This document shows, piece after piece, positions 35,365 through 40,410 of a DNA stretch of 64,000 nt (positions are counted from its first letter, which is position 1; each line of letters begins with the position of its first letter). This DNA is from Halorussus salinisoli (GTDB lineage: Archaea; Halobacteriota; Halobacteria; Halobacteriales; Haladaptataceae), in the NCBI GenBank assembly GCA_005239435.1, contig SZNP01000010.1, positions 124,001-188,000 on the forward strand, read 5' to 3'. The notes under the pieces were generated by a model. It was not told the origin of the DNA. It was given only the letters and a program-made list of their open reading frames with translations, and did not search any database. The position numbers and the translations under genes are program-made.

Positions 35365-36165
35365 CTAGAACGCCGCCAGACTCGACTGCAACTCCCTATC
35401 CGATTGTTCCTCTCGAATTTCGTAGCCGACCAACTCCCGCAGGTCCACCGCATAGGTGGTCCCGCCGCGCTCCAGCACCAGCACCCGGCCCTGTACTCCC
35501 AGAATCTCGCCGGTCAGCACGGTTTCTGGGACCGGCGCGGCGTCCAGTTCGAGTCCGTAGTCGAAGTCGAAGGTCTCGATTGGGTCGAACTCTGCGAGGG
35601 TCGCGCGCCACCGCTCGACGTCCACGTCTCGATGGATACCCGAAATCTTCGCAGGCACGCGCACGCGGTCGGTGAACTCCTCGGCTATCTGAGCCTCGAT
35701 TTCGCGGGCGACGCGGCCGTTCTCGACCGTTCGGAGGTGGGCCGCCCGGTCCGCGCCTTGCTCGCGCAGGCGGGTCGGGAGTCGCCACTCGCGGGTCACG
35801 CCGACCTTGAACGTCGCGGGTGCGAACGCCGCGAGGTAGATGGCGTGGTCGTCGTAGCAGTCCATCTCGTCCTTGAGACAGGTGCCGGTACACCGGGCGC
35901 AGACCCACGTGCTGGTATGTTGGTCACAGTAGGGCGCACGCTCGTGTTGGCAGTCGTAGTGAATCGTCCCATCGAGCGTTCCGGCACACCGACGTTCGCC
36001 GAGCGAGTAGCCGAGGCTCCGGCCAGTTTCCAGCGGCTCTCGGTCCACTGTCCCCGCGTCGGCGACGAGTATCGCGGGGTGGCGCTCGTCGCTTTCGGTC
36101 TCGTACCCGACGATTTGCACGCTCGCGGCTACGGGTTCGGTTCCTAAAGGCGTGCCGTTCGTCAC
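35365..36165 (-). CDS. DUF2797 zinc-binding protein
   Basis: A protein of about 266 residues related to DUF2797. A Cys/His cluster (HYDCQHERAPYCDQHTSTWV then CARCTGTCLKDEMDCYDDH) could bind zinc. It is followed by AIYLAAFAPATFKVGVTREW and RLPTRLREQGADRAAHLR, which resembles a GIY-YIG-like KxGxTR core. The C-terminal half is beta-rich (TVLTGEILGVQGRVLVLERG). The GTG at 36165 gives a normal start; an ATG at 36216 adds 17 residues and reaches into the promoter of the next gene. The function is not established. Confidence 0.82.
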   Translation of the reverse strand: MTNGTPLGTEPVAASVQIVGYETESDERHPAILVADAGTVDREPLETGRSLGYSLGERRCAGTLDGTIHYDCQHERAPYCDQHTSTWVCARCTGTCLKDEMDCYDDHAIYLAAFAPATFKVGVTREWRLPTRLREQGADRAAHLRTVENGRVAREIEAQIAEEFTDRVRVPAKISGIHRDVDVERWRATLAEFDPIETFDFDYGLELDAAPVPETVLTGEILGVQGRVLVLERGGTTYAVDLRELVGYEIREEQSDRELQSSLAAF

Positions 36166-36299
36166 GTCGTCCCGAAACCAAATCGAAGGAAAGACGCGCG
36201 AACGCGAGTTTTCCACTCGACTTCCGCAAGCTAACTCCTTTTATTTCTCTATAATACTAGAAACATTTTATTGCTGTGGGGGTTTTATTCGTGTGATGT

Positions 36300-37493
36300 A
36301 TGCGAGACAGCAACGAAGGTGTGTCACGGCGTAACGTGCTCAAAGTAGCTGGCGCGTCTGTCGCGACCGCGGCGGGAAGCGGTCTGGCGGCGGCAAAGCC
36401 CAGCGATACGGTCGAAGTCAACGTCGGTTTCTCGTCCCAGCGCGGCCGGGACGCGGCGGTTGCCGAGGCGAGCGAGGTCGTTCGGGAGTTCGACTCTCTC
36501 GACATCGTGACCGCCAAGATGCCCAAGCAGGCAGCCACGAGTCTCGAACAGAATCCGAACGTCCGATACGTCGAGCAGAACGGGACGATGCAGGCACTCG
36601 CCCAGACCCTGCCGTGGGGTGTCGACCGCGTGGATGCGGAAGTCCTCCACGCGAACGGCGAGACCGGCAACGGCGCGGACGTCGCCATCATCGACACGGG
36701 CATTGACGACGACCACCCCGACCTCCAGAACAACCTCGGCGAGGGCAAGGCCTTCGTCTCCTGTGGTACCGGTGGCTGGACCGGTAGCTGTTCGTTCTCG
36801 GGCAACAGTAACTCGTGTAATTACGAGTGGTCCGACGACAACGACCACGGTACCCACTGCGCCGGTATCGCCGACGCCGTGAACAACAGCGAGGGTGTGG
36901 TAGGCGTCTCGACGGAAGCCACCCTCCACGCCGTCAAGGTGCTGGACTGTGGTGGCAGCGGTACCTACTCGGACATCGCGGCGGGCATCGAGTACGTCGC
37001 CGACCAGGGCTGGGACGTCGGGTCACTCTCGCTCGGCGGCGACTCGGGTTCCTCGGCGCTCAAGGACGCGGTCCAGTACGCCACTGACAACGGCGTGCTG
37101 CTCGTCGCCGCGGCGGGCAACGATGGTTCCTGTACCGACTGTGTGGGCTACCCCGCCGCCTACAGCGAAGTGATGGCGGTCAGTTCGACGGCGAGCGACG
37201 ACAGCCTCTCGGACTTCTCCTCGCAGGGTCCGGAAGTCGAGATCGCCGCGCCCGGTACCGACATCTACTCGACCGTGCCCGGCGGCTACGACACCTTCTC
37301 GGGCACCTCGATGGCCTGTCCGCACGTTTCGGGTGCGGGCGGTCAGCTGATGTCGAACGGCTACACCAACGGCGATGCCCGGAGCCAGCTGAAGTCCACG
37401 GCCGAGGACATCGGTCTTACCAGCAACGAGTCCGGCTCGGGTCTGCTCGACGCCGCCGCGGCGCTCGGCTACGACTCCAGCGATAGCACGTAA
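36300..37493 (+). CDS. Halolysin-like subtilisin protease 1
   Basis: A 397-residue secreted serine protease (peptidase S8). Tat signal near 8-28 (GVSRRNVLKVAGASVATAAG). A propeptide of the inhibitor I9 type covers about 35-105 (TVEVNVGFSSQRGRDAAVAE). The catalytic triad is complete: Asp in DVAIIDTGIDDDHPDLQ, His in DDNDHGTHCAGIADAV, and Ser in FSGTSMACPHVSGAGG; the oxyanion Asn is in VLLVAAAGNDGSC. It lacks the long C-terminal extension of classical halolysins. The gene is followed by a paralogue at 37760 with long near-identical tracts. AT-rich upstream DNA with TTTTATT elements is the likely promoter. Confidence 0.95.
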   Translation: MRDSNEGVSRRNVLKVAGASVATAAGSGLAAAKPSDTVEVNVGFSSQRGRDAAVAEASEVVREFDSLDIVTAKMPKQAATSLEQNPNVRYVEQNGTMQALAQTLPWGVDRVDAEVLHANGETGNGADVAIIDTGIDDDHPDLQNNLGEGKAFVSCGTGGWTGSCSFSGNSNSCNYEWSDDNDHGTHCAGIADAVNNSEGVVGVSTEATLHAVKVLDCGGSGTYSDIAAGIEYVADQGWDVGSLSLGGDSGSSALKDAVQYATDNGVLLVAAAGNDGSCTDCVGYPAAYSEVMAVSSTASDDSLSDFSSQGPEVEIAAPGTDIYSTVPGGYDTFSGTSMACPHVSGAGGQLMSNGYTNGDARSQLKSTAEDIGLTSNESGSGLLDAAAALGYDSSDST

Positions 37494-37759
37494 TCGCTAC
37501 ATCAGCAGTTGCACCCCGTTTTTCCAGTCGGTATCCTATTTTTCGGCGGGTTTCCAGTCTTCCGCTCGTCGCGGTTTCGGGTACCTGCTCACTCCGTGCA
37601 CCCCCTATTTAAATTCTACTTCAGGTGAAGAATTGAAGTCTATATTTCGATAGAGCAAATATTTATAACCAACATGCGGAGCAATCCCTTCATCTAGATT
37701 AATTTATTGACGTTATTGAGAAAAACTTATTATCTATCTACGCGCTATTTTCACATGCC
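37494..37759. promoter_or_regulatory. AT-rich spacer and promoter of protease 2
   Basis: The 266-bp spacer turns AT-rich after 37600. AAATATTTATAACC near 37657-37670 and TTAATTTATTG near 37700 are candidate promoter elements. The second protease therefore has its own promoter rather than relying on read-through. Confidence 0.45.
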
Positions 37760-38953
37760 ATGCTAGGTAACGACAATGGTACTTCGAGGCGAAACGTTCT
37801 CAAGATGGCCGGTGCATCCGTGGCGACCGCGGCTGCCAGCGGCCTCGCAGCAGCGAAGCCCGGTGACACGGTGGAGGTCAACGTCGGCTTCGAGTCCGAG
37901 CGTGGCCGCCAGAAGGCGCTAAGTGCGGCCGACGAAGTCGTCCGTGACTTCAACTCGCTGGACATCGTGACCATCCGTGCGGTGAAGAAGTCCGTCTCGG
38001 CGCTCGAAAGCAACCCGAACGTGCGCTACGTCGAGGAGAACGGGACGATGGAGGCGCTCGCCGAGACCCTGCCGTGGGGCCAGGACCGCGTCGACTCCGA
38101 CGTACTCCACGCCAACGGCGAACTCGGCTCCGGTGCCGACGTGGCCATCATCGACACGGGAATCGACGACGACCATCCCGACCTGACCGACCACCTCGGC
38201 AAGGGCAAGGCCTTCGTCTCCTGCGACACGTCCGGTGGCTGTCGCTTCGGTGCGAAGCCGGCGGACAACACGTGTAACTACGCGTGGACCGACGACAACA
38301 ATCACGGCACCCACTGCGCCGGTATCGCGGCCGGCGACGACAACAGCGAGGGCGTCATCGGCGTCGGACCGGACATCACGCTCCACGCCGTGAAAGTCCT
38401 CGACAAGTGTGGTAGCGGCTCGTACTCGGACATCGCGGCGGGCATCGAGTACGTCGCCGACCAGGGCTGGGACGTCGGTTCCATGTCGCTCGGTGGCGAT
38501 TCGGGATCCTCGGCGCTCAAGGACGCGGTCCAGTACGCCACCGACAACGGCGTGTTCCTGGTGGCGGCCGCTGGTAACGACGGACCGTGTACCGACTGTG
38601 TGGGCTACCCCGCCGCCTACAGCGAAGTGATGGCGGTCAGTTCGACGGCGAGCGACGACAGCCTCTCGGACTTCTCCTCGCAGGGTCCGGAAGTCGAGAT
38701 CGCCGCGCCCGGTACCGACATCTACTCGTCGGTCGCCAACGGCGGCTACGACACCTACTCGGGCACCTCGATGGCCTGTCCGCACGTTGCGGGCGCGGGC
38801 GGCCAGCTGATGGCCGACGGTTACACCAACAGCGATACTCGCAGCCAGCTGAAGTCCACGGCCGAGGACATCGGTCTGGCCAGCAACGAGTCCGGCTCGG
38901 GTCTGCTCGACGCCGCCGCGGCGCTCGGCTACGACTCCAGCGACGATACGTAA
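37760..38953 (+). CDS. Halolysin-like subtilisin protease 2
   Basis: A 397-residue paralogue of the preceding protease with the same parts: Tat motif TSRRNVLKMAGASVATAAAS (near 8-27), I9-type propeptide, Asp in DVAIIDTGIDDDHPDLTDHL, His in TDDNNHGTHCAGIAAGD, and Ser in YSGTSMACPHVAGAGGQLM. The two genes differ mostly in the loops after the catalytic Asp (CRFGAKPADNTC here). A 141-nt tract (38588-38728) is identical to 37131-37271, pointing to recent duplication or gene conversion. Confidence 0.95.
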   Translation: MLGNDNGTSRRNVLKMAGASVATAAASGLAAAKPGDTVEVNVGFESERGRQKALSAADEVVRDFNSLDIVTIRAVKKSVSALESNPNVRYVEENGTMEALAETLPWGQDRVDSDVLHANGELGSGADVAIIDTGIDDDHPDLTDHLGKGKAFVSCDTSGGCRFGAKPADNTCNYAWTDDNNHGTHCAGIAAGDDNSEGVIGVGPDITLHAVKVLDKCGSGSYSDIAAGIEYVADQGWDVGSMSLGGDSGSSALKDAVQYATDNGVFLVAAAGNDGPCTDCVGYPAAYSEVMAVSSTASDDSLSDFSSQGPEVEIAAPGTDIYSSVANGGYDTYSGTSMACPHVAGAGGQLMADGYTNSDTRSQLKSTAEDIGLASNESGSGLLDAAAALGYDSSDDT

Positions 38954-39000
38954 CTCGTCGACTCCCCCGAAGCGAACTCCTCCTTTCGACACTCGGATTC

Positions 39001-39132
39001 GAACTGGCACGTCGGGTCGCTTCGCTCGGTGGTAGCACGTCCAACGCGGTCAGGGACGCCGTCGAGTCTGCCGACAGCCGAGGCGTCACGCTCGTCGCGG
39101 CCGCAGAGACGGGGCCGGATTCGAGCGACGAC
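39001..39132 (+). pseudogene. Remnant of a third subtilisin gene
   Basis: The translated segment RRVASLGGSTSNAVRDAVES followed by ADSRGVTLVAAAETGPDSSD aligns with the SLGGDSGSSALKDAVQYATDNGVLLVAAAGNDG block of the neighbouring proteases. No start, catalytic Asp/His or Ser region is present, and the oxyanion Asn position reads Glu. It is in frame with and directly upstream of the BsuPI-like gene, so it looks like a decayed third protease copy. Confidence 0.7.
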
Positions 39133-39177
39133 TGGACTCACGAAAAGTTTTCAGCGCTCGGTCTCGCAGTAGAAATT

Positions 39178-39510
39178 ATGACGCTACGGAGTTCTGTCAC
39201 CGCCACGGTCGAAGCCGACCGCGTCGTGTTCGAGTACGTCGTCGAGAACGTCGGCAACGACCCCGCCGAACTGACGTTCCGAAGCGCCCAGACCGCCGAC
39301 TTCGCCGTCCTCGAAGACGGCGAGGAGGTCTGGCGGGCCAGCGAGGGCCAGATGTTCGCCCAGATGATCCAGAACGAGACCATCGACGCGGGCGACGGCG
39401 AGACCTTCCCCGGCGAGTGGGACGACCCCTCGCCCGGCGACTACACGGTCGTCGCTACCCTGAACACGACCGACGACGACGCGGAGGCCCGGGCCGACTT
39501 CTCGGTGTAG
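39178..39510 (+). CDS. BsuPI-like protease inhibitor domain protein
   Basis: A 110-residue all-beta protein resembling the intracellular proteinase inhibitor BsuPI (PF12690). The pattern ADRVVFEYVVENVGNDPAEL, then LTFRSAQTADFAVLEDGEEV and WRASEGQMFAQM, then GETFPGEWDDPSPGDYTVVA matches the domain's strands and its conserved W and YTV. There is no signal peptide, so it would stay in the cytoplasm and could protect the cell from misfolded or premature proteases, as BsuPI does for ISP1 in Bacillus. The position next to two subtilisins supports this, but inhibition is inferred. Confidence 0.78.
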   Translation: MTLRSSVTATVEADRVVFEYVVENVGNDPAELTFRSAQTADFAVLEDGEEVWRASEGQMFAQMIQNETIDAGDGETFPGEWDDPSPGDYTVVATLNTTDDDAEARADFSV

Positions 39511-39603: not shown

Positions 39604-40410
39604 ATGGCCGCTACCGACCCCGAAGCCTACCTCGCGCGCATCGGTCTGGACCCGTCGGCAGTCGAACCGCCGGGCCTCGAAACGCTCGAATCGCTCCAGC
39701 GCGCCCACGTCACCGCGGTACCGTTCGAGACGCTCGCCGTGACGGGCGACCCCTTCGGCTCTCGGGACGGCGAGGGCGTGACCCTGACCCTGCCTCACCT
39801 CTACGAGAAGGTCGTCGAGCGCGAGCGAGGGGGTTTCTGCTTCGAGTTGAACGGGCTCTTCGGGTGGTTGTTGGCGGAACTCGGCTTCGACGCCGACCGC
39901 ATCGCCGCGCAGATGTTGAGCGACGACGGCGACCCCCGGCCGCCCGCGAACCACCACGCCCACCTCGTGTCGCTCGACCGGCCGTACGTCGTTGACGTCG
40001 GCTGTGGGATTCCGACGATGCGACGACCGCTCCCGCTCGATGGGAGCGTCCGGGCCGACACTGCGGGCGTCGAGTGGCGCGTGGTCGAGAGCGACCGACC
40101 GGACGCGGCCTATCTGACCCAGTGTCGGAGTCCCGGCGACGACGAGTGGGCCGACCGCTACGTCTTCGACGCCACGCCGCGGAAGCTCAGTTACTTCGAG
40201 GCGACCTGCGACCACCTCGCTACCGCCCCCGAGTCGTCGTTCACGGGCGACCCGACCGTCTCGATTGCGTCCGAGCGCGGGCACCTGAAGCTCTCGCCCG
40301 AGACGTTCAGTCGCTCGGAGCGCGGCGACCGACACGAGCGCGAAGTCGATGTGGAGGAGTGGTACGACCTGCTCGAATCGGAGTTCGGCGTCGAGTACGG
40401 CCCGGCGTGA
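39604..40410 (+). CDS. Arylamine N-acetyltransferase
   Basis: A 268-residue NAT-family enzyme that transfers acetyl from acetyl-CoA to arylamines. The Cys-His-Asp triad is intact: RERGGFCFELNGLFGWLLAE (Cys), PANHHAHLVSLDRPY (His) and YVVDVGCGIPTMRRP (Asp). Start ATG 39604 gives the usual YLARIGLDPSAVEPPGLETL N-terminus. A detoxification role is common for the family; the natural acceptor here is unknown. Confidence 0.94.
   Translation: MAATDPEAYLARIGLDPSAVEPPGLETLESLQRAHVTAVPFETLAVTGDPFGSRDGEGVTLTLPHLYEKVVERERGGFCFELNGLFGWLLAELGFDADRIAAQMLSDDGDPRPPANHHAHLVSLDRPYVVDVGCGIPTMRRPLPLDGSVRADTAGVEWRVVESDRPDAAYLTQCRSPGDDEWADRYVFDATPRKLSYFEATCDHLATAPESSFTGDPTVSIASERGHLKLSPETFSRSERGDRHEREVDVEEWYDLLESEFGVEYGPA

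Follow-up and report, generated by a model that had tools for sequence, protein, structure and literature searches.

A haloarchaeal locus combining tandem genes of Tat-type subtilases with a gene of the BsuPI inhibitor family, and its recurrence among haloarchaea

Introduction

Why should a gene related to that of BsuPI (also called IPI), a Bacillus subtilis protein whose proposed target is a subtilase of the cell interior, be located next to the genes of proteases that leave the cell? This question is raised by a 64,000-nucleotide stretch of the Halorussus salinisoli contig SZNP01000010.1 (positions 124,001 to 188,000), which is referred to here, at its full length, as the window. Two subtilase genes in tandem, designated by us as Prot1 (36300..37493) and Prot2 (37760..38953), are followed there by a fragment of a subtilase gene and by a BsuPI-like gene (39178..39510), all of them on the forward strand. 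The original prediction, made from the letters of this sequence, described the arrangement as two halolysins, a decayed third copy and a cytoplasmic inhibitor, and regarded their linkage as a module that had not been reported.

A protease that activates itself and is exported in a folded form by the twin-arginine translocation (Tat) pathway is a danger inside the cell, and haloarchaea rely heavily on this pathway. As stated in a paper that cites Du 2015 (PMC6085418), the Tat halolysin SptA self-activates intracellularly, and its Tat-signal mutant killed Haloferax volcanii. Our results indicate that the locus composed of a protease array and an inhibitor-family gene is real and recurrent, and that it probably serves to protect the cell, with BsuPI capping those Tat subtilases that activate themselves before export.

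Results

The product of 39178..39510 (110 aa, 12 kDa, pI of about 4.05, cysteine-free) is a true protein of the BsuPI/IPI family (MEROPS I22). The profile search by which the prediction of a BsuPI-like gene could be checked gave a match to PF12690 with an E-value of 8.1e-26 and 90.4 bits (cut-off 22.9) over residues 5-98 of 110, and this is the sole PF12690 match in the genome. A search with the protein sequence also retrieved the B. subtilis IPI structure, PDB 3ISY (E 2.3e-7); a search of NCBIfam provided no useful match. The AlphaFold2 model of the protein (mean predicted local distance difference test score, pLDDT, of 94.7) represents the IPI variant of the Ig-like fold, and the top PDB match of this predicted structure is again 3ISY (TM-scores of 0.91 and 0.86, root-mean-square deviation of 1.4).

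Products of both protease genes are 397-residue subtilases of peptidase family S8 (PF00082, E 1.3e-52 for Prot1 and 2.2e-56 for Prot2) with complete catalytic triad motifs DTGID, HGTHC and GTSMA, in agreement with the two subtilisins with intact triads that had been read from the sequence; a check of open reading frames bore out the lengths and coordinates as well. Their predicted Tat-type export is supported by the SRRNVLK Tat motif at residue 9 and by the NCBIfam Tat model TIGR01409, the scores of which (16.9 bits for Prot1 and 18.0 for Prot2) are just above the cut-off of 16.7. Another profile, PF10518, scored 16.3 for Prot1, under its cut-off of 22.7, and Prot2 was not among its listed matches. 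The fervidolysin-type propeptide profile PF22148 (cut-off 21) matched Prot2 with 24.7 bits and Prot1 with 19.4 bits, slightly under the cut-off. The name halolysin, which both proteins had been given, is justified by the S8 triad, the Tat signal and the propeptide, features shared with the halolysins SptA, HlyR4 and Nep, but not by the C-terminal region: the S8 match stops at residue 371 in both, only 26 residues remain, and the C-terminal extension of classical halolysins is absent. Prot1 and Prot2 are therefore extension-less subtilases. An extension-less halolysin was reportedly described by Hou et al. in 2022.

The linkage of such genes was surveyed in a sample of 293 genomes of the order, representing 87 genera, in which PF12690 was found in 161 genomes and 53 genera. 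We fetched 149 neighbourhoods from 148 of the BsuPI-positive genomes, the window being counted apart; 12 of the 161 positive genomes, in which the matches were weak and had no listed coordinates, were left out of this set. An S8 profile match of the Prot1 type was located within 1 kb of the BsuPI gene in 48 of the 149 loci (referred to below as linked), which belong to 20 of 51 genera and to nine families. The S8 gene was always on the same strand as BsuPI, upstream of it in 47 loci and downstream in one (G281), with a median gap of 81.5 nt as measured between profile matches. The nearest match was a broken copy in some of these loci, and a full-length copy was present in all 48 linked stretches. 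By a generous estimate (8 S8 genes in 3 Mb), a given locus would show such a neighbour by chance with a frequency of about 0.9%, and chance adjacency is ruled out by the recurrence in nine families. Subtilase linkage as a recurrent property of BsuPI neighbourhoods is especially frequent in Halorussus (14 of 17) and Haladaptatus (9 of 9), with one to five full copies per fetched stretch; in the three Halorussus genomes without a linked S8 (G017, G058 and G161), an S8 gene is located elsewhere. One scan of genome contigs, for which a single sequence served as the query, yielded one relative.

All 110 full-length linked S8 proteins match a loose twin-arginine pattern, 85 match all three strict triad patterns, and 106 have a tail of no more than 40 residues, in which they differ from the classical, extended halolysins. 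Long-tailed copies occur in G261, G267 and G023, and G186 has one long copy beside a short one. The linked loci contain, in addition, 26 partial S8 matches. In G281 (L064, 6926-11298), the order is reversed, with BsuPI followed by three same-strand subtilases, which indicates that the linkage possibly arose more than once. We found no description of this linkage in the literature that was searched, most subscription papers being beyond reach, and according to Rigden et al. (2013; PMC3901451), none of the completely sequenced genomes had the IPI gene in the vicinity of one for a subtilisin; the view that the module had not been described is consistent with both.

The association of BsuPI with subtilases is not limited to neighbouring genes. 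With Prot2 as a query and a threshold of E<=1e-30, a halolysin-like S8 was detected in 49 of 56 and 43 of 55 unlinked BsuPI-positive genomes, as compared to 18 of 66 and 15 of 66 BsuPI-negative ones. The 50 linked genomes, which include G127 (S8 at 1.4 kb) and the window genome, were counted as S8-positive on the basis of the earlier locus matches and were not searched again with Prot2; in total, halolysin-like S8 occurs in 142 of 161 BsuPI-positive and in 33 of 132 BsuPI-negative genomes. The co-occurrence in other haloarchaea, which was expected if the two proteins work together, holds upon stratification by family (p 1e-11) and within the 13 genera that are variable with respect to BsuPI (p 3e-5), and the numbers by genus majority are 42 of 48 versus 10 of 39. 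Short, extension-less S8 proteins were found in about 73 of 161 BsuPI-positive and two of 132 BsuPI-negative genomes, a count for which 26 unlinked genomes were read by eye (open frame of up to 464 aa, E<=1e-60). The strain from which SptA originates, Natrinema J7-2, also encodes BsuPI (P0132).

In 145 of the 149 loci, a start codon (139 ATG and 6 GTG) precedes the profile match by no more than 12 codons and has 60 nt of upstream sequence available. When aligned on this codon, the 145 loci have A at -34/-33 and also at -10, with a peak of A/T spanning -28 to -25, and the pattern is alike in linked and unlinked loci. Such a layout is that of a leaderless haloarchaeal promoter. In the window, the predicted core promoter of BsuPI (GAAAAGTTTTC, 39142..39152, forward strand) is located about 26-36 nt ahead of the start codon. 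Elements designated BRE (transcription factor B recognition element), TATA and WW have been described for the sptA promoter in PMC6085418. No signal sequence was apparent in the aligned BsuPI rows seen, as judged by eye and with no predictor run, and an exported form of the protein was rejected on this ground. The placement of the start codon and of the promoter, together with the lack of an apparent signal, indicates that BsuPI is most likely a cytoplasmic protein expressed from its own predicted leaderless promoter, in support of the cytoplasmic product that had been postulated. A fused or N-terminally extended BsuPI was also rejected: the in-frame upstream stretch is the scar sequence described below, and the conserved promoter is situated 26-36 nt before 39178. 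A shared operon as a required link is unsupported, since BsuPI has its own predicted promoter, which also means that co-expression with the proteases is not implied.

The region of IPI by which it was docked onto a subtilisin model, according to Rigden et al. (2013; PMC3901451), comprises residues 62-68. As read from the alignment, this segment (KMFTQAF) corresponds to QMFAQMI, residues 58-64, in the window BsuPI (codons at 39349..39369). Its Phe60 is conserved in 96% of the 48 linked and 97% of the 101 unlinked loci, and Gln62 in 92% of both, or in 84% of the 25 linked loci outside Haladaptataceae; Met59 is present in 94% of linked and 60% of unlinked loci. Gln62 is a candidate for the P1 residue of this putative wedge loop.

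The fragment between Prot2 and BsuPI is a true subtilase remnant, as predicted, which is supported by the match of its peptide to S8 proteins (E 5e-9, searched against a small collection of S8 frames taken from the neighbourhoods) and by DNA identity. Its origin could be traced with the help of a phylogeny of 80 subtilases of full length from Haladaptataceae. In this tree, Prot1 clusters with those copies of six relatives that are farthest from BsuPI (support 0.99; array type A) and Prot2 with the copies next in line (support 1.0; type B). The order A-B-C-D towards BsuPI is retained in G142, and also in G118 if its farthest copy is of type A, where the support is only 0.46. Positions 39004..39104 of the window are 82-85% identical to the type C paralogue of G097, G114, G181 and G118, and positions 39096..39175 are 80-81% identical, in G181 and G118, to the 3' end of the type D copy, the one nearest to BsuPI, continuing into the BsuPI promoter. 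Because the fragment matches two paralogues, a single third copy is ruled out. We infer that the window lineage formerly had both C and D, and that a deletion left the present scar. Arrays of up to five full copies plus broken ones vary among congeners (L036/G074, L037/G082, L040/G114 and others). Judged from these sequences, the linked subtilases are a fast birth-and-death family.

In Haladaptatus, the array contains one more component. A propeptide-only homologue of 74-78 residues is encoded upstream of the first protease in all nine sampled genomes of this genus (L049, L050, L051 and L053-L058), and a gene of the DUF2797 family is present on its far side in eight of the nine stretches, the stretch of L051 ending there. 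The protein is without a Tat signal, and its eight compared copies begin with GTG, are preceded by an A/T box and have a median pN/pS of 0.38. Subtilisin propeptides are the top PDB matches of its AlphaFold2 model (pLDDT 79.7, 13 sequences), with a modest best Foldseek E-value of 0.007 and a probability of 1.00; the Pfam support is weak, PF22148 being at or under the cut-off. Named public records annotate this product as a hypothetical protein or subtilisin. Among the matches listed, with no more than 19 candidates scored per genome, no such gene was present in the other 284 genomes; the short frames found elsewhere are the cut-short ones of G089 and G096 (small contigs) and a broken one of G102, and a stand-alone propeptide as a general feature was rejected. 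The Haladaptatus protein is probably a second cytoplasmic inhibitor.

Discussion

The gene identities, the predicted fold, the start and promoter of BsuPI, the recurrent linkage, the co-occurrence and the loop conservation are established here, and from them we infer that BsuPI binds and inhibits the subtilases and that the cell needs it to do so. The subtilases would fold in the cytoplasm before Tat export. Since the Tat pathway exports folded proteins, they can remove the propeptide by themselves and be activated too soon. Cytoplasmic BsuPI would bind these prematurely active enzymes, most likely by inserting the loop QMFAQMI (residues 58-64, with Gln62 as the P1 candidate) into the active-site cleft and blocking it reversibly. 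The exported enzyme would be free, because BsuPI, having no export signal, would stay behind. A single BsuPI would probably serve several paralogues as well as unlinked halolysins. The recurrence of the locus in many related archaea suggests that enzymes folding ahead of export are provided with an inbuilt safeguard, and we consider this function of BsuPI to be likely.

Several observations weigh against it. No S8 gene is located within 1 kb of BsuPI in 101 of the 149 loci, and the BsuPI loop is kept there. In 19 BsuPI-positive genomes there is no halolysin-like S8, and in five of these (G043, G088, G110, G216 and G243) a search with PF00082 found no S8 protein, which indicates that subtilase inhibition is maybe not the sole role of BsuPI. 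Conversely, 33 of the 132 BsuPI-negative genomes carry a halolysin-like S8; the mixed genera g51 (S8 in five of six negatives) and g36 (two of two) are off the trend, and in eight S8-bearing negatives the archaeal BsuPI profile gave no credible match (best E 0.037). Instead of sharing an operon with the proteases, BsuPI apparently has a promoter to itself. Rigden et al. (PMC3901451) call inhibition by Bacillus IPI unproven and doubt it as the main role of this protein, and our literature search found no report of inhibition by an archaeal BsuPI. In genus g29, which includes G148 (taken as Natronomonas pharaonis), BsuPI occurs without halolysin-like S8 in all five sampled positives, and in genus g7 in nine of 11, with an insertion before the conserved Trp-Arg in the rows seen. 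The retention of BsuPI in these two genera hints at another target.

The persistence of BsuPI in the five genomes where no S8 was found, as well as the doubts about IPI inhibition voiced in PMC3901451, would also suit a different function, namely that of a binding protein with an Ig-like fold that has some other role in the cytoplasm, perhaps together with DUF2797, the protease array merely occupying the gap between the two genes. Indeed, of the 101 loci without a nearby S8, 63 have a divergent DUF2797 gene upstream of BsuPI and no more than 1 kb away from it. A DUF2797 gene is also present in 35 of the 48 linked stretches. In the window (35365..36216, reverse strand; PF10977, E 3.9e-24), as in those Haladaptataceae loci that were inspected, it is located outside the array on the side away from BsuPI. 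This placement suggests that BsuPI and DUF2797 are fixed and that the array is gained or lost in the interval between them. Synteny alone does not predict the co-occurrence of BsuPI with halolysins within genera, and the recurrence of the linkage in nine families, including the reversed order in G281, and the conservation of the proposed inhibitory loop argue in the same direction, so that we regard a role of BsuPI apart from the subtilases as unlikely.

BsuPI might also be a holding factor for Tat cargo that binds the folded pro-enzyme and delays its autoprocessing or aids its targeting. The cytoplasmic nature of BsuPI and the Tat type of the linked S8 proteins (loose twin-arginine pattern in 110 of 110) fit this role, but the cleft of a pro-form is expected, from general knowledge of subtilases, to be already blocked by the propeptide. 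The conserved wedge resembles a ligand of the active site, as far as the docking in PMC3901451 indicates, and a holding function appears improbable to us. Immunity to proteases that neighbours or lysing kin release, brought to mind by the activity of halolysins in haloarchaeal antagonism through the activation of precursors (PMC12893001), is hardly credible, because BsuPI, with no apparent export signal, should not meet an extracellular enzyme.

A guard function of BsuPI towards Tat subtilases would have parallels in known systems. The similarity to B. subtilis IPI (BsuPI, MEROPS I22, 3ISY) and the intracellular subtilisin Isp1 concerns the Pfam family, the fold, the loop and a subtilase as the proposed target; however, the partners described here are Tat-exported and not intracellular, and the genes are adjacent. 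In the staphopain-staphostatin, SpeB-Spi and Bacteroides C10 loci, an inhibitor gene is linked, as here, to the gene of an exported protease. According to PMC3462683 and PMC2873492, staphostatins and Spi are thought to neutralise cysteine proteases that are activated prematurely in the cytoplasm, and Spi is a propeptide analogue, in which it resembles the stand-alone gene product of Haladaptatus. Those systems comprise cysteine proteases with unrelated inhibitors, are reported to be co-transcribed, and in the case of Bacteroides the inhibitors are perhaps periplasmic, whereas the loci presented here are archaeal and comprise Tat-type S8 serine peptidases in arrays of one to five full copies, beside an inhibitor for which a separate promoter is predicted. 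By analogy, the locus would work like the staphostatin and Spi pairs, with unrelated proteins. What is new is the combination of known protein families, which was not seen by the one survey that we found; the pairing of an exported protease with a cytoplasmic guard was already known.

One haloarchaeal inhibitor has been known biochemically. This protein, NSI, acts on subtilisin, is located inside the cell and was obtained in purified form from Natrialba magadii by Gimenez 2003, as cited in PMC3403918, according to which its gene was still unassigned in 2012. Genome G071, taken as that of N. magadii, encodes a BsuPI of 115 aa with a pI of 4.05 (L079, 5997-6341). Since N. magadii encodes BsuPI, and since NSI is likewise intracellular and haloarchaeal and inhibits subtilisin, the N. 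magadii BsuPI is a candidate for NSI, and no more than a candidate. The apparent mass of NSI is reportedly larger than 12.8 kDa. That all parts of the picture hold together, with a dedicated I22 guard beside changing arrays of Tat subtilases, an unrelated propeptide inhibitor at the other end of the array in Haladaptatus, and the I22 gene as that of NSI, is possible, and we lean slightly against it. For the many haloarchaeal proteases that are exported folded, the locus names a specific candidate guard gene. It gives the IPI family a genomic association with subtilases that occurs repeatedly, whereas the single earlier survey found had reported no such association, and NSI gains a candidate gene.

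The complete gene order in the window is DUF2797, Prot1, Prot2, the scar, BsuPI and an arylamine N-acetyltransferase-like gene (39604..40410; PF00797, E 6.1e-49), all on the forward strand except DUF2797. The N-acetyltransferase gene is probably not part of the module, and a neighbour of this type is present in only six of the 149 fetched loci. The source assembly of the window (G000, contig 9) carries a 9% contamination flag; the closest-scoring named relatives of the window BsuPI in the sequence search are those of Halorussus, and the genome that contains the window is Halorussus-like. The two protease genes have a block of 141 identical nucleotides in common (37131-37271 in Prot1 and 38588-38728 in Prot2), and their 3' halves are more alike, which suggests gene conversion between the two genes.

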